Shown here: piece after piece, positions 36,595 through 54,485 of the stretch
How the letters are laid out: each line of letters begins with the position of its first letter
How positions within the stretch are numbered: position 1 is the stretch's first letter
From: Paramacrobiotus metropolitanus
Taxonomy: Eukaryota; Tardigrada; Eutardigrada; Parachela; Macrobiotidae
Reading direction: 5' to 3'
Length of the DNA: 64,000 bases
Assembly: GCF_019649055.1 (NCBI RefSeq)
Contig: NW_026570229.1
Coordinates: forward strand, 1,860,001 to 1,924,000
Notes under the pieces: generated by a model
The model's input: the letters and a program-made list of their open reading frames with translations, nothing else
Told to the model about the DNA's origin: nothing
The model's database searches: none
Translations under genes and position numbers: made by a program

Positions 36595-36936
36595 TGTGAG
36601 ACGAGGCTCACTAGCGTTCACGCCCGTGGCGCTAGGCGCTACGCCTTAGGATTTCGTGTCTGTGTTGTGTCTCGCTCTGATTGGCTAGTGGGCGCGGCAT
36701 AGCACGTGCTGCACAGTGATGCACACTGTGGAATTGGCTCTACGTTTTACGATCGAGCTGCGCCGATCACTTGTTGATTTCTGGTCTCCAGACTTTCAAT
36801 ATTATTAAAAGTCAGCGATTACGGTGCGACGTTTTGTGTTTCCGCATAGCTCGCGATCCAGATCGTATCGCTCACTCCACAGGATAGATCCCGTTTCTGT
36901 CTCTGTCTCTGGATCCATTCTGGATCTAGCTTTAGA
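36595..36936 (+). repeat. 5' LTR
   Basis: 342 bp, starting TGTGAGACGAGG and ending CTAGCTTTAGA. It matches the 3' LTR base for base on reading. A TATTAAAAG sequence near 36,803 may act as the TATA element. Terminal dinucleotides are TG..GA rather than TG..CA; the end is fixed by the adjoining primer site and target duplication. Confidence 0.93.
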
Positions 36937-36947
36937 TGGTAGCAGAG
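36937..36947 (+). other. Primer binding site, initiator-Met tRNA
   Basis: TGGTAGCAGAG begins at the first base after the LTR and matches the complement of the 3' end of eukaryotic initiator tRNA-Met (CTCTGCTACCA) over 11 bases. This tRNA primes several Ty3 and copia elements. Confidence 0.8.
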
Positions 36948-37130
36948 CCGACAGCGGTTCTCTGATTTGATTTGATTTGTGTCAGGCAAAGTTGGCCTTT
37001 TATCCGACGCGATACCCGTGACCAGGAAGGCACAGGTCTGTTACACAGCAAAGCGCACACCACAAGCGGTGCAAATTCCTAATCTGACGCGGATTTCCAG
37101 CTTCGGTTTTCGGTACGGTATCTTCAGCGA

Positions 37131-37829: not shown

Positions 37830-38118
37830 AAAAGTGACCTTTAACTGAAATTGAGCTGGAAAGTGACCTTTAACTGAAATTGAGCTGGAAAGTGACCTTT
37901 AGCTGAAATTGAGTTGGAAAGTGACCTTTGATTTGAATTGAGCTGGAAAGTGACCTTTAACTGAAATTGAGCTGGAAAGTGACCTTTAGCTGAAATTGAG
38001 TTGGAAAGTGACCTTTGATTTGAATTGAGCTGGAAAGTGACCTTTAACTGAAATTGAGCTGGAAAGTGACCTTTAACTGAAATTGAGTTGGAAAGTGACC
38101 TTTTGAGTTCAGACGATT
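37830..38118 (+). repeat. 29-bp tandem array of GTGACCTTT units
   Basis: About ten units of CTGGAAAGTGACCTTTAACTGAAATTGAG (variants with AGCTG or TTTGAATT) repeat every 29 bp. The GTGACCTTT core then continues without the rest of the unit at irregular spacing to about 38,425, giving about 17 copies in the leader, all in the same orientation. Confidence 0.9.
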
Positions 38119-38501
38119 GGGAAAGTGACCTTTACCAAAAAGTTGGAAGTGATTAGTGACCTTTAGGATCTGAAATTGGCAAAACGTGACCTTTAACGAA
38201 GTCGAATAGTATAGCGATATCAGCGGCTGTAGGATTTTGTCTGTAAACGTGTTCCGAACTGTAAAAGCGGTTTCGAAGTTTTGTCGTAAAAAGTGACCTT
38301 TAGGGCAAATCTCTCGAACTTTTTATCGAAAAAGTGACCTTTAAACGGAACTTAGCCGAAATCTTTCAATCGAAAAGTGACCTTTAACCAGGACTTTGAA
38401 AAATCTCGAAGTACGGAGTGACCTTTAGGACAATTGATTAAACCATACAATAACGTGTGTGTGAGAACAATTGGCAGGGGCGTCAAAGTTATCCGATCAA
38501 A

Positions 38502-41500
38502 ATGGACAAAGACAAGGAACAACCCACTTCTACCGGCAGCCAGGGAAGCACAAGCTCCCGCAGCTCACAGCAAGGCGCACCAAACCCGTACAAAAAGGAT
38601 TTGCACACATACTTGCGTCCAGTTGGACATGAGCGGAATACTCGAGCGCCTAAGGCATTCGAGAAGAAGGAATCGCGGGGCTCTGATAGCACTTATCAGA
38701 AGGCGCTCGAAGCGGTCGCAAATCAGGAAAGCTCCAGTGACGACCAGAAGCACACTCCCGCGCCTGCGGCGGGAAGTGAACCGATGAACCAGACAAAGGT
38801 CACTGGGGAGGAAAAATCCACAGAAAGAGGAGCGGAACTAGCTGGAGCATCACAGTCGGATGCTACCACCAGCGTAACGGACGAGCAGGATAAAAATGTA
38901 AACCTGGCTCAAATGGAAGTTGAAAAGACAAAGGTCACCGAAGAGGAACTGTCTGTACTGGGATTGGATGACCTTTCACTGAATGATAAGACCGCAAGCG
39001 ATGACCTTTGGGCAACTCCAATGGTGTCAGATGAATCGAATGAATCGTATTTCACGGACGACGAAGCAACGATGAATATGTCGTTCCAATCTGCCATGAG
39101 ACAAGCTGACCGGGCCGAAGGGATGACACCTTTCAAGGAAATACCCGAGCACCTTATCGAAAGGACACAAACAGGAAAGGTCATTAACGTACGACCACCG
39201 TCACCGAATAGTCCTACGTCAACTCTGAAGAGACGCGTGAAGGAATTGGAAGAAGAGCTCGAAGCCAAGGACGGCCAGGAGATGAAGAAGAAACAGGAAT
39301 ATCAAAACCGGATAGGATCTCTGGATGCTCGCATTTATGAATTGGAGCAACAACAGGCTGACTTGGAAAGCACAGCGGACGGATGGAAGATCAAATACGA
39401 ACGTCAAAAGGAACTCGCTGAGGAATACCTAAAGATGGTAGATGACAGAGAAATGGAAGGTCATCTTGCAGTCAGTGACCTTTACGAGAGTATGTCGGAA
39501 GAATCAGCGGAAAGGTCACGACACTTAGTAAAATTGAAGGACGAGTGCGACGCATTGAAACAAAAGGTCACCGAAGCGGAAGCTAAAAGAGACGAATATG
39601 GAAACAAACTTGCGGAAGCTACACAGCGACTGTTGACAAACACTAATGAGGTGTTTAAACTCAGAAATGAGTTGAAGCTGCGAGATGAGAGCATCGGAAC
39701 TCTCCAGAAGGAATCACAGGACCATCAGAGAAGAGCCGACGATGCCGTCAAAGTGGCTAAGGGCCTGCGTGATCTTACAGCCACCGAAGGCGCACGGTTG
39801 AGCAATGGAATAAGACAGGTCATGGAAGAGAATAAGGTGCTGAAAGAAAACATCGGAAAGGTCACCGAAGAGAATACCGAGTTGAAAGGAGCCGCTAAAA
39901 CAATTGCCGAACAGGGCATGAGGTGGAAACACGAGGCACACCTCTTGGACGTAAAGGTCACGGCGCTCGAACTGAAAGATAAGGAGTGGCAACAATCAGT
40001 CCACCAGAAGACACAAGAGATCATTAAACTCAACACGGAACTGATTGATATGACCCAAACAGTAATGACGAGAGAAGACGAGGTCACTCAGACAAAAAAC
40101 CAGCTGAAGGCGGCAGCCGAGGAATATACGAAACTGGAAAGAGATGTGACCCAGTTGGTGGAACACATAAAAAAAGCGGAGAATGACACTGAAAAGGTCA
40201 TCCAGGAGAAAACGTTCCAACTCCACCAGCACATGTTGAAGGTCAAGGAGGAGAATCAGAACTTGAAAACTGAGAAGGAAGAATTCCAGCTGAAAGTCAG
40301 ACGCCTTGAAGAAGAGAATAAGGCCCTTAACATGTCGAACAAACACAAGGATGAACAGCTGTTGCAATATGGAGTCAGAATTGCAACAGTGGAGTCACCA
40401 CCGCCCAGTTACAGTAAAGCACATGAAACGGGCACGGGCAAAAGTTTCCACTTTGAGATGCCGCTACGAACTGGTACCGGTAAAGGAAATGTTAAAAATG
40501 AAACGAACGGTGACAAGGGCAAAGACGACAAAGAACTACCATCAGGAGGTTATCCGCAAACGAGTCACGGTGATCCCTCCCAATTTCCCCCGCACATCGA
40601 AACGAACGTCTTCATCGATGAAGGGAGAAGAGACCGACCGCCCAGCCGGCAAGAGCGCCCACGGAAGTCCCGCTACGGAAAGGCGAAACGAAACCAAAAT
40701 GACGACGAAAGTAGCGAAGAGGAGGATGACCCGACAGCAGAAACGACAGCCGCACAATTGACAAAAGCACTCAATTCGATGGCTCGGAAAACGACGTTAG
40801 TGACCTTTGATGGAAGTCGCGATGCAGTTAATGGCTGGACACAATTGGTCAGGGATACGCAGCGAACCTACCGACTTACTGATGATCAAATTTTAATCGA
40901 AATAGCTAGCGCGGTGAAGGGACCGGCAAAAATCTGGTTCGAGGGAGAGAGAGAAATCGCACTCCAGGAAGAGATCGAATATACGGTTACAGAATGGATG
41001 ACCAAATTCAAGGATGAATATGGTGACCGTGACGAAGAAGTTCTTGGGTTACGGGAAGCCATGGCAAGGAAATTCGACCTGGGAAAAGAAACACTTGACC
41101 AGTTTTACCAGGCGATAATGAAATACAAAGCGAAGCGAATTATCACTGAAAAACAAGCAGTCGGTTTCCTGATCGAAGGATGCAGAATAGACAGTGACCT
41201 TTATAAGGCACTGCGAACGCAACAGTGCAGAACACCAACCGAGATCAAAGATTTCTTCCGACATTGGTCGGCGGGAGAGGAAAAATATAAAGCACCAAAA
41301 GGTCAACGCAACCAGGACTATGTCACAATTCGCACTGGACAAGTTGAAACGGTGCCACAACAAAGGGTCGCGGCAGCACCAGTCCAGCAGCCGGTTGAAT
41401 ACCGAAGGGAGGCTCCGATGCAAGAAGTCACCAAGGAAGTGACCTTTATCGACAGCCAGACGGGACAACCACTTACATATGCAATGGTAGCTGCGATACA

Positions 41501-42287
41501 GGCGGCGGCCCAAGTGAGGCCAGTACCCCAGAATGTGGCACCAGCGAACGCGGTGTTACCACAACAAGGAATGGGTAACGGAAACTTTGGTGGGAACGGA
41601 TATGGAAATGGAAATTGGAATGGAGGTCAAGGGAACTTCCAGAATCAAGGTCAAGGTCAAGGGAACTTTCAGCCAAATAGAGGAAACCAGAATAACTTCC
41701 AGCAGAATCAGGGGTCACGAACGGAATTCAAATTTCAAATGATTGATGGATGGGTTGCAAATGGTGCGCAGATGTGCCAGTACTGTATGTACGGCAACCA
41801 TCAAACACAGGGATGTAAGTTCGCAAATACGCCGCCAGAGCAGAATCCGAACCTGTTCGCCTTCAGAGAGTGGCAACGCCTTCGCGCCACGGGCGGCTGG
41901 CGTCAGGCGGTGGCAAACGGATATGACCTGATCGCTCAATGGTATCAGGCGAAAGCGAACTTTCAACAAGGAAACGGAAACTATGGAAATGGAAATGGAA
42001 ATGGTGGCCAAGACGGTGGCAATCGTAGTGGTTACGGTCGCGGCGGCTTCAGAGGAAGAAACAGAGGCTTCGGTCGTGGAAACTGGAATGGTGGCAACCG
42101 AAACGGCGGAAATGGAGGTGGCCAAGGAAACTACCAACAGGGTGGTGGCCAATATAATAATGGCGGCGGCGGACAGAATCCTAACCCGGCAAATGATATC
42201 GGACAACAACAAGGAAATTTACAAGGAAATGTGCAAGGCGCGCAACAAGGTGGGGCGCCGGTTCAGGGAAACGAACAAGATCAGTAG
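38502..42287 (+). CDS. Gag polyprotein of the giant Ty3 element
   Basis: ATG 38,502 (AAAATGG context) opens 1,261 codons; the frame extends slightly upstream without ATG. The first ~230 residues are low-complexity and charged, then about 400 residues of near-continuous coiled coil (LKRRVKELEEELEAKDG, IRQVMEENKVLKENIGKV), a Gag capsid-like domain (about 40,800-41,270; GWTQLVRDTQRTYRL, FKDEYGDRDEEVLGL), a C-x2-C-x4-H-x4-C knuckle at 41,775-41,816, and a Gly/Asn/Gln-rich RGG-type tail (GYGRGGFRGRNRGFGRGN) that should bind RNA. Gag proteins package the RNA into virus-like particles. The coiled coil is far longer than in usual Ty3 Gags. KVT, ERS, SDL and VTF peptides mark embedded AAAGGTCA words. 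Confidence 0.88.
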   Translation: MDKDKEQPTSTGSQGSTSSRSSQQGAPNPYKKDLHTYLRPVGHERNTRAPKAFEKKESRGSDSTYQKALEAVANQESSSDDQKHTPAPAAGSEPMNQTKVTGEEKSTERGAELAGASQSDATTSVTDEQDKNVNLAQMEVEKTKVTEEELSVLGLDDLSLNDKTASDDLWATPMVSDESNESYFTDDEATMNMSFQSAMRQADRAEGMTPFKEIPEHLIERTQTGKVINVRPPSPNSPTSTLKRRVKELEEELEAKDGQEMKKKQEYQNRIGSLDARIYELEQQQADLESTADGWKIKYERQKELAEEYLKMVDDREMEGHLAVSDLYESMSEESAERSRHLVKLKDECDALKQKVTEAEAKRDEYGNKLAEATQRLLTNTNEVFKLRNELKLRDESIGTLQKESQDHQRRADDAVKVAKGLRDLTATEGARLSNGIRQVMEENKVLKENIGKVTEENTELKGAAKTIAEQGMRWKHEAHLLDVKVTALELKDKEWQQSVHQKTQEIIKLNTELIDMTQTVMTREDEVTQTKNQLKAAAEEYTKLERDVTQLVEHIKKAENDTEKVIQEKTFQLHQHMLKVKEENQNLKTEKEEFQLKVRRLEEENKALNMSNKHKDEQLLQYGVRIATVESPPPSYSKAHETGTGKSFHFEMPLRTGTGKGNVKNETNGDKGKDDKELPSGGYPQTSHGDPSQFPPHIETNVFIDEGRRDRPPSRQERPRKSRYGKAKRNQNDDESSEEEDDPTAETTAAQLTKALNSMARKTTLVTFDGSRDAVNGWTQLVRDTQRTYRLTDDQILIEIASAVKGPAKIWFEGEREIALQEEIEYTVTEWMTKFKDEYGDRDEEVLGLREAMARKFDLGKETLDQFYQAIMKYKAKRIITEKQAVGFLIEGCRIDSDLYKALRTQQCRTPTEIKDFFRHWSAGEEKYKAPKGQRNQDYVTIRTGQVETVPQQRVAAAPVQQPVEYRREAPMQEVTKEVTFIDSQTGQPLTYAMVAAIQAAAQVRPVPQNVAPANAVLPQQGMGNGNFGGNGYGNGNWNGGQGNFQNQGQGQGNFQPNRGNQNNFQQNQGSRTEFKFQMIDGWVANGAQMCQYCMYGNHQTQGCKFANTPPEQNPNLFAFREWQRLRATGGWRQAVANGYDLIAQWYQAKANFQQGNGNYGNGNGNGGQDGGNRSGYGRGGFRGRNRGFGRGNWNGGNRNGGNGGGQGNYQQGGGQYNNGGGGQNPNPANDIGQQQGNLQGNVQGAQQGGAPVQGNEQDQ
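42215..42221 (+). promoter_or_regulatory. Candidate -1 ribosomal frameshift site AAATTTA
   Basis: A-AAT-TTA is in the gag frame and is a canonical X-XXY-YYZ heptamer. It falls inside the only window where slipping is productive: the last pol-frame stop is TGA at 42,194-42,196 and gag ends at 42,285-42,287. A -1 shift here reads on into pol with no stop. A GGCGC..GCGCC hairpin starts 15 nt downstream. Confidence 0.6.
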
Positions 42288-45200
42288 GCGCCGGTGAGCC
42301 TACTGATCGACCCGACCCTAAACCACCGGATAAAAAGGGAAAGGAAAGGTCACCACTGCAGAATGGCACTGCAGTGAATGTGACCACTGCAACGGCTATA
42401 AGGATGCCGTCGGCGCAAAAAGAAAGTGGACCGGCTATATGGATGCCGCAACCACAGCAAACGCCTATATGGATGCCGCCACAGCAAATTGAAACGGCTA
42501 TATGGATGTCGTCATTGCAAAAGGAAATTGAAACGGCTATAAGGATGCCGTCACAGCAGCAAAACGAACTGGTTATCGGGAAACCAGTACAAGCGGATAA
42601 AAGGTCACCGCAGAATGGTACTGCGAGTGGAAACGCGCAACGGGACCAAAGCTCACCGCAGAATGGTACTGCGAGTGGAAATTGTCGTGACGGTAGCGCG
42701 ACACTGCGAACAGCGCAGCAAAATGAAAGGTCACCGTACTGCAGCGAAGAGGTGTTAGCGCAACGACGCGCACAACGAAACGCAAAGATTCAACAGGCGT
42801 TTCTGAATCAAAAGAAACCGCAGAACGACACTGCGCAAGAGGAAAACGAGCAACATGCGAAATTCCGAAAATACTTGGCAGAAAATGATAAAGTGAATGA
42901 GTCACGTTGCGATTGTTACGGAGGGATAAAGCCAAAGTTCTGGAATTGTCCAGAGGACGAAGATGAGAAGTTGATAAGACAAAAATGGATGGAGCAGAAT
43001 ATCACTGCTAACAGAAAAGATGAAAGGTCACCTTCCGTAGGAAAAGTCCAAGTGAAAGGTCAAGGAGCGAATGCGAACGCTAAAGGTCACGGTGAAAGCG
43101 CCGTGTTAAAAGGTCAAGAAACAGACTTGACACTGCGAACAGCGCAGCAGAAGAATAGCGAACCGGCACAGCAGAACTCCGATGACTCACTTGAAAAAAA
43201 AAATGGCATATGGCAAAAAGTAGCCTACAGACCGAATGGGAATCACGGGATGTGGATACCTGTGACGCAAAAAGCGAAACAGAAAGCGGGAATGTCTCAA
43301 GAAGATTACTGGGACATGCGAGAATTGCGAACGCAACATGAGAGAAAACGACTGGAAGAATTGGTTACCGGAAAAGAAGTTAAAAGGTCACCGAACCTTG
43401 CTCCAGTATTCAACGCAACTGAATACAAGAATGCACAAGCTGACCTAAATAACTCGCGAAATGCACCACCGAAAGACAAACCGTCGAATTATGGCGAAAA
43501 AGTTCCCATACAAAAGATGTCAAACGGCGGATTTGTTATAAAGCGCAATGAAAGGTCACAGGACTTAGCGCAAAATGAACAGAAAGGAGGGTCAAACGAG
43601 AATGCGCAAATGCAACAGAGTAGCGCAGCCGAAAGGTCACGGGACTTGTCACAGGCACTGCAAAAGGATGCCAATGACAAGTCACCAGCTCGAACTGATG
43701 GAATGTCCTCGCAAATTGATCCGCCGAAAACGAATAATGAAGTGTCAGCAAAAGTGATTGAATGGATGACCGAAAAGGGATATGATATGGTTACATATGA
43801 AAGGTCACCAAATGAGATGAAAGATAGCGAAGCAGATGAATTGAAGCGAGCTGACCAAATAACAAGTGAAGTCATTGAGAAGTTGCGAGATAAACGAAAT
43901 GAAAACCGCAAAGAGGAACTGATCCACGAGGCGATAAATGAAGTGACTAAAGGTCACGTGGACAGCACAAAAGCAAATCCGCAAGTGCAGAACAATGAAA
44001 AGGTCACCAGCGGTAAAATGGCTGCAGAAAAGCAAACAGATAAGAAAGAGCCGCGCAAATTTTACGACGTTCGAACTGATGTGCCACACAGGATTGACAA
44101 GTTGAGGGAGATACTGAAAGGTCATAGCACTCCGGCGAAAGGACAAGTGCCTCCCGACATGGATCCGGGACCGGTATCTCTAATTCCTGTGAAATGCAAG
44201 ATACACACATTGAAGATTCAAAACGGAAAATTGCCCAAAAGAATTGAAGCGTATACACATGAAGTGAAAGTGGGAGACATAAAGGTCAACGCAATGTTGG
44301 ACACCGGTGCTGAGACGTCGCTGATCAGCAAACCGTTTTGTGAAAAGAATGGACTTCATATGCTCCCATTGCCACCAGACAGACTGGTGAAGATAAATGG
44401 AATTAGCGGAACGTCAGGATTCCTGGTGACGCACTACTGTGTAGCACCAGTGACCTTAAGGAAAAAGACTAGTGAACATTCCTTTTACGTCCGACCGAAA
44501 TGCGATGATGTACAAGTGTTATTGGGATTTGACTTCTTGGAAAAGAAATTTGTACTGATGGACAATGAAGGGGAGGAAGAAAAAGAAGATGACCCCAAAC
44601 CAATTGCCAAAGTCCAAGTCGGAAAGGTCACCGAACTTGTAAAACAGAAGGGAAATGTTCAGACCGATAATAAGGTGCTAATCCCAGTACCAGAGGCACC
44701 GGGAAAGGAGCAGAAAAAGATGGCACAAAAAGAATTGTCGACATTTGAACAGTTGAAATTGATCCAACAGGAGATTGGAAATACATTAAACCGGACACTG
44801 CTGACACAAAGGGGAAGAGAAAAGGTCATCCCAGTACCAGAGGCACCGGGAGTGACAAGAGCGCAGCAGAACGCGACAGAAGCGCAGCAGGAAAAAGTTA
44901 TCCCAGTACCAGAGGCACTGGAAACGAAAAATGAAAATGGGAATATCAAAAAAGTTATCCCAGTACCAGAGGCACTGGGAACGAAAGATGAAAGGCCACC
45001 AGTTGAGAATTTGGCATCAGAGCCGGATCCGAAAAACGTCAGCAAGACCTTTTTCGAACCACGACCTGCTACCGAAAATGAAAATGAAGAAAAAGATTTG
45101 CAGAGAGTGCCAGAGCGCACCCCGAATCTTTTAGAACCTCGATCTGCTACCGGAAATGACGAAAGGTCACCAACACTTGAAGAGATAGCTGCCACACAGA

Positions 45201-48200
45201 AAGAAGCGACAGCTGCAGCGAAACAATCGCTTGTGCCTGGCATGGATTGGGCAAAGCCTATCCCAGTACCAGAGGCACTGGGAATAAAGACGGCCAAAGT
45301 CGGGAAGGATAAAAAGAGTGAAAGATTGCGGATATTGAAACGAATAGCCGAAGAAGAACAGATGTTCGCGAGCGAAATCCGCAACAAAGCGCTTGAACAG
45401 CTGAAAGGTCACCAACTGAACAATGAAACAGAGATTATTGAAATATCCTCCGACGAAGCGAGTATAACAGAAATCGAATGTGAGCAGAAAGCCACAATAC
45501 AGGAGAAGGAGATCACCAAACCGCAAACGAATCGGAGGATATTAACCCCAGAAGAACGAATGGGGAGCTGCGGACACGGTTACTACGAGGATCCGTGTAG
45601 AGTGCAACCACAATGGGAATGCACTGAATGCTGCCAAGACGCCTCCCAAGATGACCTTTCAGAATGGCCGAGATGTAACGCCACACTGGCAGATCTTAAA
45701 GGTCATGTCCAAAAAGAAGTGAAAAGCATCATGCGGACAAACGAAATGTGGAAGCCACACATTGAGCGGTATCACTGGAACAGATATCGGACTTGGTTGT
45801 CATGTGTGAAAAACTTCATTACGGGGAGAGGAAAATGGCTGAACCATTGGCAGCAACGTGTGGATAACGGAATCCAAGATCCTCTTGACCCGGTATCAAC
45901 TGAGCGGAAACTTGAAAGAGAGATCGACTCAATGAACGAGGAAGTACACCTATGGGAAGAAGCGAGAATAGAATTGTTCTGGGACTTCCGCATAAACCAT
46001 ATGTATAAAGGTCAAGGGAGAACAATTATATTTCCAACGGGACTTGGTACACCGGTGTACGAATCGGTGGTGGTATTCTGTAAAGCACTCAAAGATGATA
46101 ACTGGGAGATATTCGACAAATACTGGAGGAAATTCGAAGCGGAGATTCCTATATTCGATACAAAGGAAATGCGAGAATTGCAAGTAACCCGGAAAAGAAG
46201 GTTACCGGGGTTAATGGAAAAGAAAAAGGTGACCTTTGCACCAGATCCAGATGGAGTGGAATACCCTGAACGAGGCGGTGACACGTGGTGCATGTACGAA
46301 ACGATTCCGAGTGATGACTGGGTCACTGAAGAGCTGATGGCAAATTGCGTTTTTGTTGGTCCTAAACGACCTAAAGGTTATGAAACGGTCCAACAGGATG
46401 AAGTGGATAAGGTGACTGTAAAAGAAGCAGGGAAGGAGGAAACGACCAAAGAAATAGCTGAAGGAGGATCGAACGAAACAGAAGAAAGTCCAAAATCGGC
46501 CTTCGACATTGCACAGATGTTAACGGACAGAGGAGAAATGTGGAAAAAGTTCAAAGAGGAAGTTGAAAGGATATCAAAGGAACAGCAAAACCCAGTAACT
46601 GAGGCAAAAAACGGGGAAAGGTCACTCGATAACGGTGAGGAAGGTCCGCCGGTCGAGTTGACCGAAAAGCCATTAATGAGTCTCGGAGAAATGGATGAAC
46701 CGGAAAAGTTAAAATCAGAAGAAGAAAGGTCAAACTCCGATCAATCAGAAAGGTCATTAACAAGAATTCGGGTAGCAAGGAGCCACCCGAGAATCGCCGC
46801 ACGAAATGGGCGCAAAGCAAAGGAAGCGGACAAACCTCTGCCCAAAAATTCGAAAGCAAAAAAACTTAGTGATTCGCGAGAAAACGAAAGTGACCTTTCA
46901 TCAGATGATGAAGGAGTTGATGAGCGTCCACTTGAAAAGACTGACAAAGGTCAAGCCGCTGCACAAGAATACGAGAGCAGCGATTCGGACTCGGAATGGA
47001 CGAGTTCAAGCGATAACTCAACGACTTCAGAAGATTCAGGTGTAAGTGACCTTTCAGAACAAGAGGACTTAATGGACCTGGATGAAGATGATGAAGTGGA
47101 CGAAGAAAAAGAAAAGGAAATTAAAGTCAGAAGATTGAAAGTGGAAAAGGCTAGAATGTCGAAAGATGTGATTAAAGTCTACAGTGACCAAAGAATTAAA
47201 CTGAAACCGTCACACTGCACCCGGGTAAAGGTCAAGATGGGAAAATATGCGCCGGCTCAGAACAAGTTGATGTTTACACCGGTCCCACAAGTGGAAACTG
47301 AAGTGCAACCGTTGGCAGGAGTGACGGATCACAGGGGAAAATACTTTGAAATTGTTATCGCGAATCACAGTAGCAAATACCGAGTCGTGAAGAAAAATCA
47401 GCTTCTCGGATACGTTGAACCGTATGAACATATGGAAAATGTAAAGGTCAACGCTGGGACAGTAAAGAACGTGCTCGAGGACCCAGAGGTGGACGATACG
47501 ACGAAAGCTGAACTGACAAAGATAATTGGAAACCTGAAATTAGGACCCGACCTAACTGAGGAACAAAAGAACGACGTGTATAACGCGTTCTGGGAATTCT
47601 GGAAGGTCTTACCCACATCAAAGAAACCATACGGAGATGTGAAAGGGGTCACTCATGTAATCGATACGGGAGACGCGAAACCAGTTAAATGCAACCCGGC
47701 TAGAACGAGTTGGACAGGCCGTGAGTTCATAACAAAGCATATAGAAGAGATGTTGGCACAAGATGTGATTGAACCGTCGGACGCCGAATGGAGCTTTCCA
47801 GTTGTATTAGCGGTGAAGAAGAATGGCGACGGGACAATGGGAACGAGATTCTGCGTCAATTACATCATGTTGAATAAGTTAACGAGAAAGAATAATTACC
47901 CGTTACCGAACCCGGATGAGTTGCTTGACGCGTGTGCAGGCAATAAATATTACGGAAAAATGGACTTGCAAAGTGGATTCTGGCAGATCCCGATGGATCC
48001 AGCGTCAATCAACAAGACGACCTTTGTAACGCAAGATGGAATGTATCGATTCAAAAGGATGCCATTTGGAGTTTGCAACGGGCCAGCGACATTCCAGTTG
48101 TGCATGGATAAAGTACTTTCGAAAGCGAAAAGAAAAGGCTGCGTTTTCGGGTACATTGATGACGTGATTTTCGCCGGAAAAACTTGGGCAATCTTCATGC

Positions 48201-51200
48201 ATAATTTAAGAAATGTATTGATGAGCTTGGTCGAAGCGGGATTCACGATTAAGCCAACCAAGTGCGAATTTGGAATGAGACAAATGGGATTCCTGGGTCA
48301 TATACTCAGCGAAGACGGAATCAGAATGGATCCGGAAAAGGTCACCGCAGTCTCAGAATTTAAACGACCTCAAACAGAAAGGCAGTTAAGGTCATTCCTT
48401 GGACTGGCGAATTATTACCGCAAGTTCATAATGGGATATGCACAGAAGACTTGCCATTTGTATGAATTACTGAGACAAGATAAACAAGTAAAGAAAGACT
48501 GGACAAAGGTGCACGAAGAGGAATTCAACAGTTTGAAACAACTGTTGTGTGAAGGTCCAGTATTGGCGAAGTTTGACCCCGCGAAACCGACCGTTATTGA
48601 ATGTGACGCAAGCAAAGAAGGAATCGGAGCGGTATTGTCACAGGATGGACATCCGATTGCATACGCGAGCCGCGTCTTACACGGAGCAGAACGAAATTAC
48701 GGCGTAACAGAATGGGAATGTCTGGCAGTGGTATTTGCTGTCAGAAAATTCAAGCCGTTTATTGATTATGCGGAATTTACTGTAAGAACGGACCATCAGG
48801 CGTTGACCAACCTATTGAGGTCGGAAACGAATAAAGTTGGAATGAACCCGCGCCTGACGAGATGGGCGATGGCATTACAAGGTCATCAGTTCAAAATTGA
48901 ATATAAACCGGGGAAATATTGCGACAATGCGGACGCGTTATCAAGAGCACCAATTGAAGGCCCGACGTGTCAGGAAGAAGAATTCGACGAGATACCGAAC
49001 TTTGAAGATTATAAGAAAGAGTTCGACACGAAAGAACCAGCAATCGAAATTGGACAGTTGTTCCTGCAGATGGTGGAACAGAGGGAGAAACGTCTAAAGG
49101 TCACCTCAGCTACGGCGAATGAGTCGGCTGAAACGGAAGCAAAAGTGAACCGAGTTAAAAGCTGGTTGCCTACCGTTAGTGACTTAAAGGTCACCGGACT
49201 TGCAGCGGATATTGAAGCTCATAATGGAAAGGTCACCGGACTTGACGAAACGATGGAAATTCGAGATGACCTTTGGGAAACAGACAAAGTGGCACAGGCG
49301 TTGAACGAGTGCCCGATAAAGCTGTTGCGATTCCCGAAACAGATGAAAAAGAGATACAAGCCATTACCACGCTGTAAGGTCATCAAAGATTGGAATGAAC
49401 TTAGCACAGCGACAGTCCGCATCGTCAATCTGCAAGGTGATGAGGAAGAGGAAGATGACTCGAACCTGCAATTGCGCAATAAACAGTTGAAAGATCCCCA
49501 TCTGGCAATGATAATAGATGAATTGGAACATCTACCAGATGCTGAAACGAGATCGAAATTTGAAGTTCATTACCAGTTGTGGAACGGCATACTGTACCGA
49601 GTAAAGGATAAGAATGGCAAACTCGAAAGGTCATATGTAGTACCGTTGTCAATGCGAAGAGCGATAATCCACGCATTGCACGATGAGAAAGCGGCAGGCC
49701 ATTTGGGATTCGAAAAAACACTGTCAGCAATAAGATTGCGTTATTATTGGGACAGAATGAGCACTGACGTGAAGAATTACATACTTGCTTGCCAAGGCTG
49801 CCAATTTCGAAAGACACCGAGAAAATGTCCACCCGGTAAACTACAAGAAATAAAAGTTGGACATCCATTCTTCCGAGTCTACGCGGACTTGAAAGGACCG
49901 CTGTTGCCAACGAAGAAACGCGGATATAAGTACATCGCAGTATTCATCGATCAGCTGACCAAATATGTGATAGCGGTACCGATGAAGACAGCAACGGCGA
50001 AAGAGTTTGCAAAAGTGTTCGTCAAGCACGTGATACTGGTGCACGGAGCACCGCACATCCTACATACGGATCGTGGACGACACTTTACAGCTGAAGTGTT
50101 GACAAAGGTCACCAACGTGTTCAAGATTAAACACACGTTTGGAACGGCGTATCACCCAGAAGGTCAAGGCCAAGTTGAAAGACAGATGCAAACTATTGCA
50201 GATGGCTTAGCACAGTACCTGAAAGCGGGAAACGAAAGGAAGTTCAACAAGTACCTTCCATATGTCATTTCGGCGATGAACCGAGTCGTACACGCCACAA
50301 CCGGATATTCGGCATACTATATGTTGCACGGCAGAGAAATGACAATGCCGGAAGATGTAGTCACAAAAACGAATATCCCAGATGATTATGGGACTCCCGA
50401 TGAATGGGTAGAGACCATGAAAAAGAACTTGACCTTTGCAGAAGAAGTGGCAAAATGCAATATTAAAGATGCTTACGAAAAGAACGCAGAGATATACAAC
50501 AAGAGGAAGTCAGAACCGAATTTCAAGGTGGGTGACCTTGTGTTGATACGACTTCCGAAGGATACGAAACAAGGAAAGAAAGAAAATCAGTCGGACTTCA
50601 AGTCGAAATACGATAAAGTGTGGAAGATCCTCAGTTTCCCGCGAACAAACGAAGCGGAGGTCATTGAACAGAATCCAAAGAAAGAGGCAGACCTGAAAGT
50701 GGTCTCAATTGACCGGTTGAAGTTATGGCACCCGCCATTGCCGGACAAAGACGCAGAGCGTCAGTCCCAAAAAGTGACCTTTTTCGAACCACCTCTGCTA
50801 CCCGAAAAGGAAAAGTCGGAAGAAGATAAACTCAGTGAAGCCGAGCATGCTCCGAAAAACGATACCAGTCAATTTTTCGAACCACGCTCTCTGTTACCTG
50901 ATACAGGTGGAGATAGACCAAAAAAGAAGAGAGGGAGACCGAGGAAAGAGGATAAAGACTTCGAGACAGCCGTTACAATAAAGTTGAACGCAGAAGCTGG
51001 GAATCTGGCAGAAAGGTCACTAGAAACTAGTGACCTTCCTGTCACATTACCGAATCGCCAGAAGGATGGCGAAGTATCAGAGCGTACTTCCAAAAAGGAT
51101 TTGCAACAATCATTTTTCGAACCACGCACTGCTACGATGAACGATAATGACCTCATAGAAACGAGAAAAGAGGAAATAGAAGCGGTCAAATCAAAAACTG

Positions 51201-51376
51201 AACAATTGGGCCGTGATATAGCGAAAGCCATCGAGGAAAGAAGGGCTAAACAGAAGAAAAAGAAACTGACTCCTACAGAATTGCTGACCCAGAAAGGTGA
51301 AGTTGAAGATGCGGCCGACAAAGAACTCCTCGATCGGATAACTAAAGGACGCAAAGACAATAACCCACAAAAATAA
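42221..51376 (+). CDS. Pol polyprotein: protease, RT, RNase H, integrase
   Basis: About 3,050 codons in the -1 frame relative to gag, so a Gag-Pol of roughly 4,290 aa if the frameshift is used. Order: 420 residues of repeats and charged linker; aspartic protease (AMLDTGAETSLIS; Asp codon 44,300); PVPEA repeats; Cys-rich unknown domain (about 45,540-46,390); acidic linker; reverse transcriptase (about 47,650-48,330; FCVNYIMLNKL, MPFGVCNGPATFQ, YIDD at 48,152-48,163); RNase H (IECDASKEGIGAVLSQDG, RTDHQAL); integrase with H-x-H..C-x2-C (AGHLGFEK, CQGCQFRKT) and D-D-35-E at codons 49,886, 50,069 and 50,177; a GPY/F-like module (FKVGDLVLIR); and a C-terminal tail with an AT-hook (KKKRGRPRK). All catalytic residues are present. 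Usual Ty3 Pol is about 1,000-1,300 aa. Confidence 0.9.
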   Translation, partial: TRKCARRATRWGAGSGKRTRSVGAGEPTDRPDPKPPDKKGKERSPLQNGTAVNVTTATAIRMPSAQKESGPAIWMPQPQQTPIWMPPQQIETAIWMSSLQKEIETAIRMPSQQQNELVIGKPVQADKRSPQNGTASGNAQRDQSSPQNGTASGNCRDGSATLRTAQQNERSPYCSEEVLAQRRAQRNAKIQQAFLNQKKPQNDTAQEENEQHAKFRKYLAENDKVNESRCDCYGGIKPKFWNCPEDEDEKLIRQKWMEQNITANRKDERSPSVGKVQVKGQGANANAKGHGESAVLKGQETDLTLRTAQQKNSEPAQQNSDDSLEKKNGIWQKVAYRPNGNHGMWIPVTQKAKQKAGMSQEDYWDMRELRTQHERKRLEELVTGKEVKRSPNLAPVFNATEYKNAQADLNNSRNAPPKDKPSNYGEKVPIQKMSNGGFVIKRNERSQDLAQNEQKGGSNENAQMQQSSAAERSRDLSQALQKDANDKSPARTDGMSSQIDPPKTNNEVSAKVIEWMTEKGYDMVTYERSPNEMKDSEADELKRADQITSEVIEKLRDKRNENRKEELIHEAINEVTKGHVDSTKANPQVQNNEKVTSGKMAAEKQTDKKEPRKFYDVRTDVPHRIDKLREILKGHSTPAKGQVPPDMDPGPVSLIPVKCKIHTLKIQNGKLPKRIEAYTHEVKVGDIKVNAMLDTGAETSLISKPFCEKNGLHMLPLPPDRLVKINGISGTSGFLVTHYCVAPVTLRKKTSEHSFYVRPKCDDVQVLLGFDFLEKKFVLMDNEGEEEKEDDPKPIAKVQVGKVTELVKQKGNVQTDNKVLIPVPEAPGKEQKKMAQKELSTFEQLKLIQQEIGNTLNRTLLTQRGREKVIPVPEAPGVTRAQQNATEAQQEKVIPVPEALETKNENGNIKKVIPVPEALGTKDERPPVENLASEPDPKNVSKTFFEPRPATENENEEKDLQRVPERTPNLLEPRSATGNDERSPTLEEIAATQKEATAAAKQSLVPGMDWAKPIPVPEALGIKTAKVGKDKKSERLRILKRIAEEEQMFASEIRNKALEQLKGHQLNNETEIIEISSDEASITEIECEQKATIQEKEITKPQTNRRILTPEERMGSCGHGYYEDPCRVQPQWECTECCQDASQDDLSEWPRCNATLADLKGHVQKEVKSIMRTNEMWKPHIERYHWNRYRTWLSCVKNFITGRGKWLNHWQQRVDNGIQDPLDPVSTERKLEREIDSMNEEVHLWEEARIELFWDFRINHMYKGQGRTIIFPTGLGTPVYESVVVFCKALKDDNWEIFDKYWRKFEAEIPIFDTKEMRELQVTRKRRLPGLMEKKKVTFAPDPDGVEYPERGGDTWCMYETIPSDDWVTEELMANCVFVGPKRPKGYETVQQDEVDKVTVKEAGKEETTKEIAEGGSNETEESPKSAFDIAQMLTDRGEMWKKFKEEVERISKEQQNPVTEAKNGERSLDNGEEGPPVELTEKPLMSLGEMDEPEKLKSEEERSNSDQSERSLTRIRVARSHPRIAARNGRKAKEADKPLPKNSKAKKLSDSRENESDLSSDDEGVDERPLEKTDKGQAAAQEYESSDSDSEWTSSSDNSTTSEDSGVSDLSEQEDLMDLDEDDEVDEEKEKEIKVRRLKVEKARMSKDVIKVYSDQRIKLKPSHCTRVKVKMGKYAPAQNKLMFTPVPQVETEVQPLAGVTDHRGKYFEIVIANHSSKYRVVKKNQLLGYVEPYEHMENVKVNAGTVKNVLEDPEVDDTTKAELTKIIGNLKLGPDLTEEQKNDVYNAFWEFWKVLPTSKKPYGDVKGVTHVIDTGDAKPVKCNPARTSWTGREFITKHIEEMLAQDVIEPSDAEWSFPVVLAVKKNGDGTMGTRFCVNYIMLNKLTRKNNYPLPNPDELLDACAGNKYYGKMDLQSGFWQIPMDPASINKTTFVTQDGMYRFKRMPFGVCNGPATFQLCMDKVLSKAKRKGCVFGYIDDVIFAGKTWAIFMHNLRNVLMSLVEAGFTIKPTKCEFGMRQMGFLGHILSEDGIRMDPEKVTAVSEFKRPQTERQLRSFLGLANYYRKFIMGYAQKTCHLYELLRQDKQVKKDWTKVHEEEFNSLKQLLCEGPVLAKFDPAKPTVIECDASKEGIGAVLSQDGHPIAYASRVLHGAERNYGVTEWECLAVVFAVRKFKPFIDYAEFTVRTDHQALTNLLRSETNKVGMNPRLTRWAMALQGHQFKIEYKPGKYCDNADALSRAPIEGPTCQEEEFDEIPNFEDYKKEFDTKEPAIEIGQLFLQMVEQREKRLKVTSATANESAETEAKVNRVKSWLPTVSDLKVTGLAADIEAHNGKVTGLDETMEIRDDLWETDKVAQALNECPIKLLRFPKQMKKRYKPLPRCKVIKDWNELSTATVRIVNLQGDEEEEDDSNLQLRNKQLKDPHLAMIIDELEHLPDAETRSKFEVHYQLWNGILYRVKDKNGKLERSYVVPLSMRRAIIHALHDEKAAGHLGFEKTLSAIRLRYYWDRMSTDVKNYILACQGCQFRKTPRKCPPGKLQEIKVGHPFFRVYADLKGPLLPTKKRGYKYIAVFIDQLTKYVIAVPMKTATAKEFAKVFVKHVILVHGAPHILHTDRGRHFTAEVLTKVTNVFKIKHTFGTAYHPEGQGQVERQMQTIADGLAQYLKAGNERKFNKYLPYVISAMNRVVHATTGYSAYYMLHGREMTMPEDVVTKTNIPDDYGTPDEWVETMKKNLTFAEEVAKCNIKDAYEKNAEIYNKRKSEPNFKVGDLVLIRLPKDTKQGKKENQSDFKSKYDKVWKILSFPRTNEAEVIEQNPKKEADLKVVSIDRLKLWHPPLPDKDAERQSQKVTFFEPPLLPEKEKSEEDKLSEAEHAPKNDTSQFFEPRSLLPDTGGDRPKKKRGRPRKEDKDFETAVTIKLNAEAGNLAERSLETSDLPVTLPNRQKDGEVSERTSKKDLQQSFFEPRTATMNDNDLIETRKEEIEAVKSKTEQLGRDIAKAIEERRAKQKKKKLTPTELLTQKGEVEDAADKELLDRITKGRKDNNPQK
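42279..42308 (+). other. Perfect stem-loop over the gag stop codon
   Basis: GATCAGTAGGC and GCCTACTGATC form an 11-bp perfect stem with an 8-base loop; the gag UAG lies in the 5' strand of the stem. It is 57 nt beyond the slippery heptamer, farther than usual stimulators, so a role in frameshifting or termination is only possible. Confidence 0.6.
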
Positions 51377-54143
51377 GAATAACGGGGGTTTGTCATATTA
51401 AGAACGGGAGTCGGGAAGGTGTAAAGGTCATACGCCACAAACCTGCTAATCGTTATCGTTTTCGATGTTAGTTGAAAGGTCACCAAACTCTGACGAAAAG
51501 TCATCAAAAACGTTAAAAGGTCATCGAAACCGACGTCAGAAAGGTTATCATGGATGAAAAGTCAACAGAAAGGTCCTCCAGTCGAAAGGTCATCAGACTC
51601 GGACTGAATCATACGAGAGAAGCGAAAGGTCATCGAAAAGTCGAGATACTCCGACCGAAATTCAAATGAAACAACGAAAAGGTCACGAAAGTCCGGAATC
51701 TTCAGAAATTATCGTCCAATCGAAAGGTCATCGAACTCTGACTGAAGTACAAAATGAATTGCAAACGTCGATTGAAGCAAAAGCGGAAGAAGGTAAATCG
51801 AAAGGTTAAGAGACTCCGGCAGAAATCCATATGGAACAGCCAAAAGGTCACGAAAGATCTAGATCAGCAAAAATAAAAGGTCATCAGATGAGATTGTGAA
51901 GCCGGATCACCGAAAACCATAAGGTCAAGTGACTAACGAACCAAAGGTCAAGCGCAAATAAACTTAAAGGTCAAATGTCAAGTGAACCAAGTGTCAAGCG
52001 AAACGTCAAGTGACAGACCAACTGAAAGGTCACGGGACTTGGTCAGAAAAAGACGAACAGTCTAAAGGTCAAGAGACGTCTGGAACCGTGAAAGAGGAAG
52101 CGCAACCTAAAGGTCAAGGGAGCTCCGTGTCTACGGAACAATCGAAAGGTCACGAGACTTTGAAAGAAGGTGGGAAAGAAAAGGTCATGCTCCCCATGGA
52201 AAAAGTGGCCGCAGATGCGGAAACCAATTCGGCGCGTCAAGTGTTTCAGAAATCCTTGAAAGAGGCTACGGGAACGGAAAAACCGAAAGGTCACGAGACC
52301 TTGCCGCAAGAAGAGAAGAATAATGAGCCGAAATCGGCCCAGTCATCATCCGGATCGTTGGCGAAGTTGAAGATTGTTGAAACAGAGAGCCAGGAAATGG
52401 ACCCAACGGACTCGGCATTATCCCCCCAGAAACCGGATGCTAGCGGTATACCAGCGAAAAACATACCGGTGTACATACTACCGGGGCACAACAATAAAAA
52501 TTCGCGGGGGCGGCCATAACTGATGCGGCCATGGATATTATCGTCGGAACAAACGCAGTGACGTTGAATGACCTTTTGAACTGCATGGCTGTCTGACTTT
52601 GAAATGTTCAAATTGAATATCGGAAAGGATGGGAAGTAAATCAGAAACTCTGTTGAATGTTTGATTAACGACGGAGCACTTGAACTGGCGTAAACGACAA
52701 AACGTGAAAGGTCACCGCGTTAGAATGAAGCAATTGACCTTAATGATTTAACGGAAAAGGTCACGAAAGGTCATCAGAAGCGAATATCACGGTTAAGTAT
52801 AAAGGTCACGTAACGTGTTAACTTAAACTGCATTCGTGTAATTGTTGTTTTCAGCATTTATAGCACAGAATCAGAAGAAAGAAATCATGTGGAAAGTTTT
52901 TGGGGTTGAAATTGATTCGGTCTATAAAGCCGGCCCCAAGGGAGTTGTTACGGCAATTAGCCGGCTCTCCTCCTTAAGCGATTCAGTGTTATAAATTTGC
53001 AAGAGAAACTACGGTAATCAAGCCGGATCTCTTGAGGACGAAAGCGGGCCACAAGCGGCGAAAAAGAGAAAGACAACAGGTGGAAATATTAATGAGGTAA
53101 ACTCGATGCGGCAGTCAGCCGGCCTCATTAGAGTTGCTACGGTAAACTATGCCGGCAATCTCTCCAAGCGAATCAGTGTTATAAGTCAACGAGAGGAATA
53201 GCGGTAATCAAGCCGGATCTCTCGTACCGAAGCTGGGCCACAACCGGCGAACAAGAGTAAAAGATCTAATGTGGAAGCGTCACGGGGTAAATTTAATGCG
53301 GTAGTTAGCCGGCCCCATCAGAGATGCTACGGTAAACTCTGCCGGCACTCTGGCCGCTCGAGGCATGTTGAAGTCGGATGTGCGATGGAAAGGTCAACCA
53401 GAAAGTTCTACCAGGGAGGCAAGCGAAGAAGTGCTTGAAAACCGTCAAAAATTGGCTAAGTTCCTCCATGACCTTTAATGGATGTTGAAGAGAAGTTGGA
53501 TGACCTTTGGGAACATTACCGCCCAAGAGAGTCACCATGTTAGAATTCAAGTCGCATGACCTTTTGGGACCATTAACCCATAACGAGTCGCACATCTCAA
53601 CGGATCATCTCAACAGAGGATGACCTTTACCAGGGAGGAAGCGAACTACGCTTGTCTACATGACGTCCCTCCATGACCTTTATTGGATCTCATTTTGAAG
53701 TCGTACAATTGATACGCACCGTATTCCAAAGGTTGAAGCAGTATTCCTAAGTCGTACTTGATACGCACCTGATTCTCAAGCGGATTGTGATGAAGTCGCA
53801 CTACGGATGCGCGAAGTTGCTCAACAGAGCGGAATGGACCAAAGTGCGGAAAACGGTGGACAGGACCTGTGACCTTTACGAGTCAGAAATGGAGGATCCT
53901 AGTCTACATTTTGATTTAAACTTTTGTTGATCTGTTAACTGTTGATCTGTTTTGTATTAGAATTGATATGGAATATTATTTTGATACAGATCTCTTTAAT
54001 TCACATTGTGTATTTGGAATTGATGTGATAAATGGAATAAGAGAATTTGATGTTTTTGAGCACACACAGACACCAGCGACCGTCTTTTCGTGGATTCGGG
54101 AGTGTGTCCAGCCTCAACGGAGCTCGGCATCCCCCCAGAGGCA
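51377..54143 (+). other. Long 3' untranslated region of the giant element
   Basis: 2.77 kb between pol and the 3' LTR. 51,420-52,820 is dense in forward AAAGGTCA words at roughly 30-80 bp spacing; 53,460-53,880 has the reverse word six times. An open stretch of about 170 codons (52,010-52,519) repeats KGHE/KGQE because of the word and has no ATG until late; coding is doubtful. No env-like or chromodomain frame is present. Confidence 0.6.
52898..53355 (+). repeat. 190-bp tandem repeat near the 3' LTR
   Basis: Two full diverged copies and a partial third share AGCCGGCCCC/CTACGGTAAACT, CAAGCGAATCAGTGTTATAA and AATCAAGCCGGATCTCT segments with a 190-bp period (for example 52,976 and 53,166). Each unit is rich in GCCGG words that can pair with each other. 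Confidence 0.7.
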
Positions 54144-54485
54144 TGTGAGACGAGGCTCACTAGCGTTCACGCCCGTGGCGCTAGGCGCTACGCCTTAGGA
54201 TTTCGTGTCTGTGTTGTGTCTCGCTCTGATTGGCTAGTGGGCGCGGCATAGCACGTGCTGCACAGTGATGCACACTGTGGAATTGGCTCTACGTTTTACG
54301 ATCGAGCTGCGCCGATCACTTGTTGATTTCTGGTCTCCAGACTTTCAATATTATTAAAAGTCAGCGATTACGGTGCGACGTTTTGTGTTTCCGCATAGCT
54401 CGCGATCCAGATCGTATCGCTCACTCCACAGGATAGATCCCGTTTCTGTCTCTGTCTCTGGATCCATTCTGGATCTAGCTTTAGA
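54144..54485 (+). repeat. 3' LTR
   Basis: 342 bp, same sequence as the 5' LTR. Followed by CTAA, the target duplication. The 20 bases before it (CGGCATCCCCCCAGAGGCA) are not a typical polypurine tract. Confidence 0.93.

Follow-up and report, generated by a model that had tools for sequence, protein, structure and literature searches.

Structure of the element and abundance of the word

We analysed a window of 64,000 nucleotides from Paramacrobiotus metropolitanus, in which an 18-kb Ty3-type element occupied positions 36594-54485, with LTRs, a primer binding site (PBS), gag, and a pol in the protease-RT-RNase H-integrase order (Table 1). The PBS presumably matches the initiator-Met tRNA. The pol frame extended back to 42197 without a stop and there ran across the end of gag, which is read in a different frame, and the plus strand of the 3' internal region was without a long ORF (longest, 177 codons from stop to stop); judged by eye, this region consists in part of accessory-ORF remains. 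One near-perfect hairpin was present at ∼51011-51038. Among the matches listed, the closest named relatives outside the species were chelicerate Ty3-type proteins of Cordylochernes, Tetranychus, and Oppia, with 40-43% identity across about half of the RT-RNH-IN query.

Table 1. Parts of the Ty3-type element, in window coordinates.
Feature	Position	Strand	Remarks
Target-site duplication CTAA	36591..36594 (5' copy), 54486-54489 (3' copy)		LTR-flanking sequence
5' LTR	36594..36936	+	343 bp identical to 3' LTR; first shared base possibly chance; word-free
Primer binding site TGGTAGCAGAGC...	36937..36950	+	Basis: sequence
Leader word array	37835..38426	-	17 AAAGGTCA, all on - strand; initial ten spaced 29 bp
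gag ORF	38457..42287 (first ATG 38502)	+	One CCHC-like motif; 15 AAAGGTCA (9 +, 6 -)
pol ORF	42374..51376	+	40 AAAGGTCA (33 +, 7 -); + words in all three frames
Aspartic protease domain	44261..44536	+	Pfam PF13650, PF13975
Reverse transcriptase domain	47819..48307	+	Pfam PF00078
RNase H domain	48500..48880	+	Pfam PF17919, PF17917
Integrase, H2C2 zinc binding and core	49640..50158	+	Pfam PF17921, PF00665
AT-hook-like stretch KKKRGRPRK, Pol tail	50921..50947	+	Basis: sequence
3' internal region	51377..54142		29 AAAGGTCA (22 +, 7 -)
3' LTR	54143..54485	+	Word-free

The first-pass annotation had counted by hand about 110 copies of AAGGTCA in the element and none in its LTRs. The computed number between the LTRs was 115, of which 102 were the 8-bp word AAAGGTCA, and both LTRs held zero. 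The 7-mer occurred 17 times in the leader (all on the minus strand), 19 times in the gag ORF, once in the gag-pol gap, 47 times in the pol ORF, and 31 times in the 3' region. On average AAAGGTCA recurred once per 170 bp; it overlapped the two protein-coding genes 55 times, and it was densest outside coding sequence, in the leader and the 3' region. Dinucleotide shuffles of the internal region (200 per region, regional values summed) yielded ∼2.6 AAGGTCA and ∼0.8 AAAGGTCA. Synonymous-codon shuffles (n = 500 for each gene) likewise fell short of the observed numbers, with ∼5.1 AAGGTCA (maximum 11) and ∼2.9 AAAGGTCA (maximum 9) in pol compared to 47 and 40 observed, and ∼2.4 (maximum 8) and 0.8 (maximum 4) in gag compared to 19 and 15. 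The array thus passed both of the shuffle checks that had been proposed for it. The remaining 46.1 kb of the window contained six AAGGTCA and one AAAGGTCA, similar to its shuffles (5.5 and 1.9). Plus-strand words in pol were distributed over the frames as 9, 13, and 11; this all-frame usage, together with the synonymous shuffles, ruled out a peptide repeat or codon bias as the origin of the array. Ten of the 17 leader words sit in a tandem repeat with 29-bp steps and so are not independent events, and some adjacent words in the 3' region lie within longer common repeats.

The word was sharper than first described. Within the element, single-change variants at positions 2-8 numbered 0-3 each (0.3-1.5 expected), and position 1 of AAGGTCA-containing 8-mers was A in 102 of 115 cases and C in 4. 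The base following AAAGGTCA was never G (0/102; 0/65 on the plus and 0/37 on the minus strand). We considered whether this gap came from selection against splice-acceptor or branch-point sequences and dropped the idea, given that TCAG and CTGAC were not scarce elsewhere in the element.

Conservation of the word within and between element families

We compared three families: A, comprising the window element and its sister copies, the closer related B, and the more distant C. Absence of the array from other copies had been named in advance as grounds for rejecting the observation. All 29 sister copies examined, among 104 RT matches listed, carried the array in pol, with 13-17 words in the matching 4.2 kb compared to 16 in the window element; all seven copies examined over gag and the N-terminal part of pol did so as well (16-20 words compared to 20). 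Across the 29 copies the words were on average 93% intact, whereas phase-matched 8-mers were 37% intact, and 16 of 16 pol words exceeded their local controls. The corresponding values for the seven copies were 87% and 47%, with 19 of 20 words ahead of the local controls. Fourfold-degenerate sites were 97.9% identical within words (n = 43) versus 73.8% elsewhere (n = 1041), six minus-orientation words were likewise kept (71-100% intact), and conservation dropped beyond the word boundaries. These results show that AAAGGTCA is under selection as DNA, at synonymous sites, within coding sequence. That the word stays unchanged in relatives while its neighbourhood drifts suggests that a protein which reads DNA relies on the word.

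The word was also retained at a greater distance. Where A and C were aligned (68% identity), alignable A words were intact in 18/20 and 17/21 cases (1.9 and 2.1 expected), and in the C-to-A direction in 18/25 and 17/23. Two C copies shared 30 of 35 words (30/37 in the reverse direction; 8.0 expected). By comparison, only 4/23 and 0/21 alignable words were kept between A and B, and B was nearly word-free. RT frames of 2,670-2,982 codons were found in three of four sampled B copies; the word is therefore not required by such elements. We presume that it was ancestral and later lost in B. A tally of conserved words in two C copies returned 30 AAAGGTCA, whereas the same tally in two B copies gave no 8-mer more than four times in that piece and hence no sign of a replacement word. 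In a C piece, seven of the eight words ahead of the gag ORF were on the minus strand.

By blastp, B pieces spanned residues 14-1276 of A gag and 14-1780 and 2181-2770 of A pol, and RT was common to A and B; no larger domain restricted to A and C was seen in this search and the RT comparison. A Pol residues 2771-2839 aligned with a C piece but had no counterpart in the B piece, in which the frame stops at this point. Six accessory ORFs of B and C were compared with Pfam for known DNA-binding families; at E ≤ 0.001 none matched, and the best match (E 0.0029) scored under its model's cut-off. Nucleosome-like even spacing of the words was tried and dropped: the N-terminal part of pol in the window was more even than chance (P 0.004), but gag plus pol overall was not (P 0.26), and no clear evenness appeared in C (mid-pol pieces, P 0.50 and 0.38; gag piece, 0.90; 3' piece, 0.057).

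The word and nuclear-receptor genes in the host genome

Genome-wide, AAAGGTCA occurred 42,562 times. Variants were counted for positions 1, 2, and 8, with means per variant word of 6,636, 3,360, and 4,407, respectively, so that the word was 6-13 times commoner than these means; it also exceeded the summed counts of the three other bases at position 1 (19,908) and at position 2 (10,081). The reversed spelling, used as a control, occurred 15,522 times, which leaves the word only 2.7 times as frequent. Host nuclear-receptor loci totalling 88 kb, which by BLAST showed no resemblance to element pieces, had AAAGGTCA as their most enriched 8-mer (21 versus 2.5 expected). Base 9 was G in 8 of these 21 words versus 0/102 in the element, and the sites in the two settings may therefore not be identical.

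Two DNA-binding-domain exons of the host had Nurr1 and NGFI-B as their best solved-structure matches, and a further exon encoded GRRGRLPTKPK. Judged from these exons, the host has a predicted NR4A-type receptor gene. Sites of the ERR/FTZ-F1 type carry C at position 1. This form was not enriched: TCAAGGTCA was present twice (overlapping) in the element and not at all in the 88 kb, where none of 30 AAGGTCA had C at position 1. A published account gives 42 C4-type zinc finger proteins for P. metropolitanus, and the term NR4A is absent from it (PMC12941274).

Candidate readers of the word and comparison with known systems

The first-pass annotation had proposed the array as a landing platform for a host receptor or for an element protein, namely the AT-hook Pol tail or Gag. 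The platform itself held up: the array is real, every sister copy examined has it, and its conservation shows at the nucleotide level, which makes a binding platform the natural reading. Moreover, in the passages that describe it, the NR4A monomer site NBRE is identical to AAAGGTCA (PMC4777543, PMC12539977), as had been noted. The two element proteins gained no support as readers. Family C retains the words, yet the single C Pol-tail piece lacks such a hook, and the Gag of A is nearer to that of word-poor B (55.5% identity) than to that of word-rich C (39.4%).

In the explanation that we prefer, AAAGGTCA would be a cis-acting double-stranded DNA site that a Ty3 lineage multiplied through its leader, coding, and 3' regions and that purifying selection retains there. 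Its retention in both orientations, with G missing at base 9 in both, is the behaviour of a DNA site. The reader would be a host protein that recognizes monomer sites in the manner of NR4A, bound along the whole provirus; many bound molecules over the 17-kb internal region might maintain access to an inserted copy and its transcription, or prevent its silencing, much like the Su(Hw) array in the gypsy leader of Drosophila. We give a probability of roughly 0.5 to the proposal that a host protein binds the word to the benefit of the element, a proposal that overlaps the insulator alternative below. A host NR4A-like protein is the most likely reader because the host genome shows an excess of the same sharply defined word and has an NR4A-type gene; the identification with NR4A itself is tentative. 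Binding of the word, the host origin and NR4A identity of the binding protein, and its promotion of element expression are all predicted steps. Several observations count against the preferred explanation. Classical nuclear-receptor activation predicts sites in the LTR promoter, and the LTRs are word-free; the word is sharper than expected for a nuclear-receptor site; the 46 kb flanking the element contain one AAAGGTCA versus roughly 9 at the C1 dispersed rate; and the leader words lie on a single strand, which binding to double-stranded DNA would not predict (tandem duplication accounts for 10 of the 17). The limited excess over the reversed spelling, the base-9 difference between host and element, and the long RT frames of the nearly word-free B weigh in the same direction. 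A broader version, which we consider less likely than not, would make AAAGGTCA a genome-wide address word of this tardigrade that a single abundant DNA-binding protein reads exactly, with one lineage of giant retrotransposons writing it through its codons as an expression-licensing self-tag and B as a natural knock-out that dropped the tag.

A different host DNA-binding protein, such as a genome-wide zinc-finger insulator or architectural protein, would turn the array into an insulator or boundary and leave NR4A irrelevant. The exact specificity at positions 2-8, where no variant is enriched, the dispersed host sites, and the example set by gypsy and Su(Hw) (PMC2493044) all fit such a protein, but the equality with NBRE and the unenriched ERR/FTZ-F1 variant would then have to be coincidence, and a boundary requires a cluster rather than sites all through coding sequence; we regard this alternative, which overlaps the preferred explanation, as somewhat unlikely. 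A reader encoded by the element (Gag, the Pol tail, or an accessory product), serving packaging, cDNA compaction, or autoregulation, is improbable. The words are densest where there is no coding sequence, the window copy has the AT-hook-like tail and a CCHC-like motif in Gag, and the 2771-2839 stretch of A Pol pairs with C and not with B. Against these points stand the hookless C tail, the Gag identities, and the lack of a larger domain confined to A and C in the comparisons above, and such a reader leaves the excess in the host genome unexplained.

An RNA-level signal seems equally improbable. Here, leader UGACCUUU would pair with AAAGGUCA in gag-pol or 3' RNA, or an RNA-binding protein would act on single-stranded copies for export or packaging. 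Uniform polarity in the leader (17/17, and 7/8 before gag in the C piece), with coding words mainly opposite, fits this idea, as does the near-perfect hairpin. Yet one and the same ORF holds both polarities, enriched and conserved, codon shuffles of pol yield a similar strand bias (33:7 observed, 0.45:0.06 in shuffles), and the host excess sits in unrelated DNA. We give almost no weight to a functionless origin, whether from repeated peptides, biased codon use, tandem duplication, or mutation that generates the word. The ten tandem leader copies and the 3'-region neighbours within longer repeats fit that reading; the use of all frames by plus-strand pol words and the shortfall of the synonymous shuffles do not, and homologous words of A and C survive amid flanks of 68% identity, with conservation fading outside the word. 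For the words in coding sequence, the conservation tests contradict this reading.

The nearest precedent is Drosophila gypsy (mdg4) and Su(Hw), where copies of one host-protein site are packed closely in the leader of an LTR retroelement; the leader here has 17 words. The Drosophila genome has hundreds more Su(Hw) sites, mostly single (PMC2493044). The gypsy repeats number twelve and lie in the 5' untranslated region; the tardigrade element differs in having 102 copies of another word across the leader, both ORFs, and the 3' region, with synonymous positions kept. Furthermore, the gypsy array is an insulator bound by a host protein, whereas for the tardigrade array such a role is a proposal. 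The second likeness is to NBRE, the monomer site of NR4A (NGFI-B/Nur77/Nurr1), but about a hundred sites in the body of a retroelement, with no enriched variant, had no parallel among the literature matches listed; the passage of PMC12539977 that matched AAAGGTCA together with retrotransposon concerns NBRE generally. In the open-access library searched, no comparable array turned up in any Ty3 element described, in line with the first-pass annotation, and among the matches listed there was neither a paper joining AAAGGTCA with tardigrades nor anything on the word in work on tardigrade motifs.

Retroelements were already known to hold host-factor sites in LTRs or leaders, and here an exact 8-bp word runs through the genes. 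It lies within two genes and is conserved above the surrounding synonymous sites where tested, so that across much of the element selection acts at once on a DNA code and on the protein code. The three families offer a ready comparison set, of which A and C keep the word and B nearly lacks it, and further copies of the word are dispersed through the host genome. The identity of the reader could expose a general tardigrade regulatory or chromatin factor and a route by which mobile elements stay expressed. A functional analogy is offered by the PATCs of Caenorhabditis elegans, a widespread genomic DNA feature that can prevent silencing of germline transgenes; it consists of an An/Tn periodicity effective in introns, without an exact word and with no sequence in common with AAAGGTCA (PMC7725773).

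Saturation and conservation of a single word

The first-pass annotation had reported many copies of AAGGTCA in the 18-kb Ty3-type LTR retrotransposon of the window and none in its LTRs; our count was 115 copies of this 7-mer and 102 of the 8-mer AAAGGTCA containing it (the word) in the internal region between the LTRs, zero words in the LTRs, and a single word in the other 46 kb of the window. This count lay far above shuffles preserving dinucleotides, codons or protein, and no dinucleotide- or codon-preserving shuffle, the controls suggested by that annotation, approached it. Word density per kb was 11.2 in the leader, 10.5 in the 3' region, 3.9 in gag and 4.4 in pol. Single-change variants numbered 4-5 copies each at position 1 and 0-3 at positions 2-8 (counted from the first base of the word), and base 9 of the 102 words was C in 62, T in 25, A in 15 and G in none. 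A peptide repeat as the source of the words was ruled out because the forward words in pol occupy all three frames (9, 13 and 11).

The array recurs in other copies of family A (the window copy and its sisters), as the annotation had proposed to check. Across 46214-50413, we compared 29 sister copies (the best 30 of 104 RT matches listed, minus the window's own) with 83-92% nucleotide identity to the window copy. The 16 words of this region were intact in a mean of 93% of copies versus 37% for phase-matched 8-mers; 16/16 exceeded their local control, and 0/5000 control draws equalled the words. At 40874-44874, where seven copies were compared, 20 words were 87% intact versus 47%, and 19/20 beat the local control, the exception being the word at 43055 (intact in 29%). 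At fourfold-degenerate sites, identity was 97.9% within words (n = 43), against 73.8% for sites elsewhere (n = 1041). Word positions 1-8 averaged 96-99% identity and neighbouring positions 80-96%; positions 0 (0.957) and 11 (0.961) about equalled the weakest word position, 4 (0.962), which makes 8 bp an approximate rather than an exact size for the footprint. An extra word site near 42.65 kb (about 42648) was present in 7/7 sister copies (L002-L008) and missing from the window copy. Word pairs with leader-like spacing were found, judged by place, in at least one more A copy (C1:865826-866370 on a host contig, beside the RT match at C1:855432).

Retention and near absence in related families

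Two related families of the same genome, B and C, were delimited by RT identity to the window rather than by a tree (A about 96-100%, B about 91-94%, C about 86-89%), and four pieces of each were examined (23.2 kb per family). The C pieces held 36, 38, 24 and 18 words (116 in all) and the B pieces 4, 0, 1 and 0 (five in all); the only word of B piece L073 sits within the initial 100 bases of that piece, upstream of an LTR-like match, and may fall outside the element. Intact words were compared as ungapped 8-mers with local identity of at least 50%, the remainder being excluded. Base identity between A and C across the middle pol piece was 68%, yet 18/20 and 17/21 alignable A words were kept (1.9 and 2.1 expected), with 18/25 and 17/23 kept in the C-to-A direction; between A and B it was 72-74%, but 4/23 and 0/21 were kept (1.9 and 2.7 expected). 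Between two C copies, 30/35 words were kept (8.0 expected). From A to C, 5/9 words were kept in the 3' piece and 7/15 in the 5' piece; from A to B, 0/5 and 0/14. In one B copy, 4/4 of its words lay where A also has a word. The simplest history suggested by these sequences is a word-rich ancestor followed by loss in B, for which a comparison of one piece between two B copies found no substitute word. RT frames of three B copies span 2,670-2,982 codons and that of the fourth, on contig C6, 1,634; the C6 middle piece is split among several frames, so decay may explain part of its word loss.

Beyond pol, the 3' pieces L074 (B) and L076 (C) each contain three more open stretches (344-485 codons), with Pfam matches for 0/6 at E <= 0.001, and the window 3' region appears by eye to hold a decayed remnant of one of them. 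The 5' piece L075 (C) contains CCTTGACC 14 times and CAAGGTGG 11 times, possibly a second local repeat.

A probable DNA site and its candidate reader

Gag, pol and the 3' region were each enriched for the word in both orientations, which were conserved alike; codon shuffles produce a similar kind of forward-strand bias in pol; and G is missing at base 9 for words of either strand. Together, these features favour a double-stranded DNA site. The rival reading, RNA pairing, draws on the leader, where 17/17 words in the window copy and 7/8 ahead of the gag ORF in a C copy lie on the - strand; tandem duplication accounts for ten of the 17 window words but not for the other seven. Against this reading, both orientations are enriched and conserved within a single ORF. 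AAAGGTCA is the NBRE, the monomer site of NR4A nuclear receptors (PMC4777543, PMC12539977), in agreement with the first-pass assignment. A scan for the nuclear-receptor DNA-binding domain matched 63 exons of the genome. On contig C45 lies an NR4A-type gene whose first- and second-finger exons gave Nurr1 (3.1e-14) and NGFI-B (5.3e-22) as top solved-structure matches, and which has a further exon bearing GRRGRLPTKPK. Extensions of this type in NR4A proteins touch the 5' A-bases. ERR and FTZ-F1 receptors, of which we take two host genes to be ERR-like and one FTZ-F1-like by signature, prefer C at position 1, a form showing no enrichment. The NBRE match, the host gene and the unenriched ERR/FTZ-F1 form make NR4A the best single candidate reader, although some other zinc-finger protein would fit as well.

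With about a hundred kept sites, none in the short LTRs and the densest in the non-coding leader and 3' region, the distribution points to occupancy along the entire provirus rather than a promoter switch. By analogy with the gypsy insulator and Su(Hw) transgenes, the bound protein would keep an inserted copy accessible or prevent its silencing. According to PMC2493044, the gypsy insulator comprises twelve Su(Hw)-bound repeats clustered in the 5' untranslated region and blocks repression by Polycomb complexes and heterochromatin; PMC6471301 describes disruption of piRNA-cluster transcription by transgenes carrying Su(Hw) sites. In contrast to gypsy, the window element carries words in leader, gag, pol and 3' region. 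Arrays of host-protein sites in retroelement leaders are already known; our search of one open-access literature library found no coding region saturated with one exact word selected at synonymous sites.

The host genome and the setting of the element

Genome-wide, the word occurred 42,562 times, and variant means per word were 6,636 (position 1), 3,360 (position 2) and 4,407 (position 8). The reversed spelling occurred 15,522 times; genomic counts of same-composition words thus differ widely, and the word exceeds this control 2.7-fold. Close word pairs (8-38 bases between) numbered 3,559 versus 46 for the reversed pattern. The first 100 words listed on the C1 forward strand reach 0.83 Mb, with 76 dispersed and the other 24 clustered within 17 kb at 202-219 kb; variants over this stretch came to 11-14 per word (43, 33 and 33 listed, each for three words). 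This cluster (C1:202498-218940), whose leader-like words resemble the window's, is not among the 104 RT matches listed and is possibly a further family. At 28 nuclear-receptor loci (88 kb; two of 30 dropped for overlap), which may be atypical of host DNA, the word was the top enriched 8-mer (21 versus 2.5 expected; mean 3.3 and runner-up 11 among 759 same-composition words). BLAST of the 30 loci against element pieces gave no resemblance, and the surroundings of these words repeated neither each other nor the window flanks, barring overlapping loci and one 34-bp match. Against a host excess stands the lone word in the DNA surrounding the element. G at base 9 was found in 8/21 words of the nuclear-receptor loci, 0/102 in the element, 6/116 in C pieces and 4,042/42,562 genome-wide, a difference in sequence that warns against assigning dispersed host words and element words to one factor.

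Inserted in a 170-Mb animal genome, the element has a CTAA target duplication and an identical pair of 343-bp LTRs, which indicates recent insertion. Its layout is LTR, PBS, leader, gag ORF, pol ORF, 3' region and LTR. The pol ORF (3000 codons) encodes protease, RT, RNase H and integrase, and its residues 1740-2640 match two annotated P. metropolitanus proteins at 97% and 95%, which makes this tardigrade very probably the host; the 2.8-kb 3' region has no long ORF on the + strand. Since the pol frame overlaps the gag end in a different frame, a frameshift may give access to pol. On the + strand of 36937-54142, 5' splice-site-like motifs were scarce (GTAAG 4 versus 13.2 expected, GTGAG 6 versus 22.9), as if the long element RNA avoided cryptic splicing; on the - strand, GTAAG was not scarce (6 versus 5.3) and GTGAG was (3 versus 7.8).

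Positions of the element and neighbouring features in the window
Feature	Position	Strand	Remark
Element	36594-54485		
Pol frame, open already from	42197		
Overlap of pol frame with gag end	42197-42287		different frame
Tandem arrays flanking the element	35661-36390; 54533-54902		units 16-bp TTCGGCCGCCACTCAC, 9-10-bp AAGAAACCT
Units resembling those arrays	8152-8231; 8494-8620		
ORF with 7tm chemosensory receptor match	58581-59648	-	PF08395
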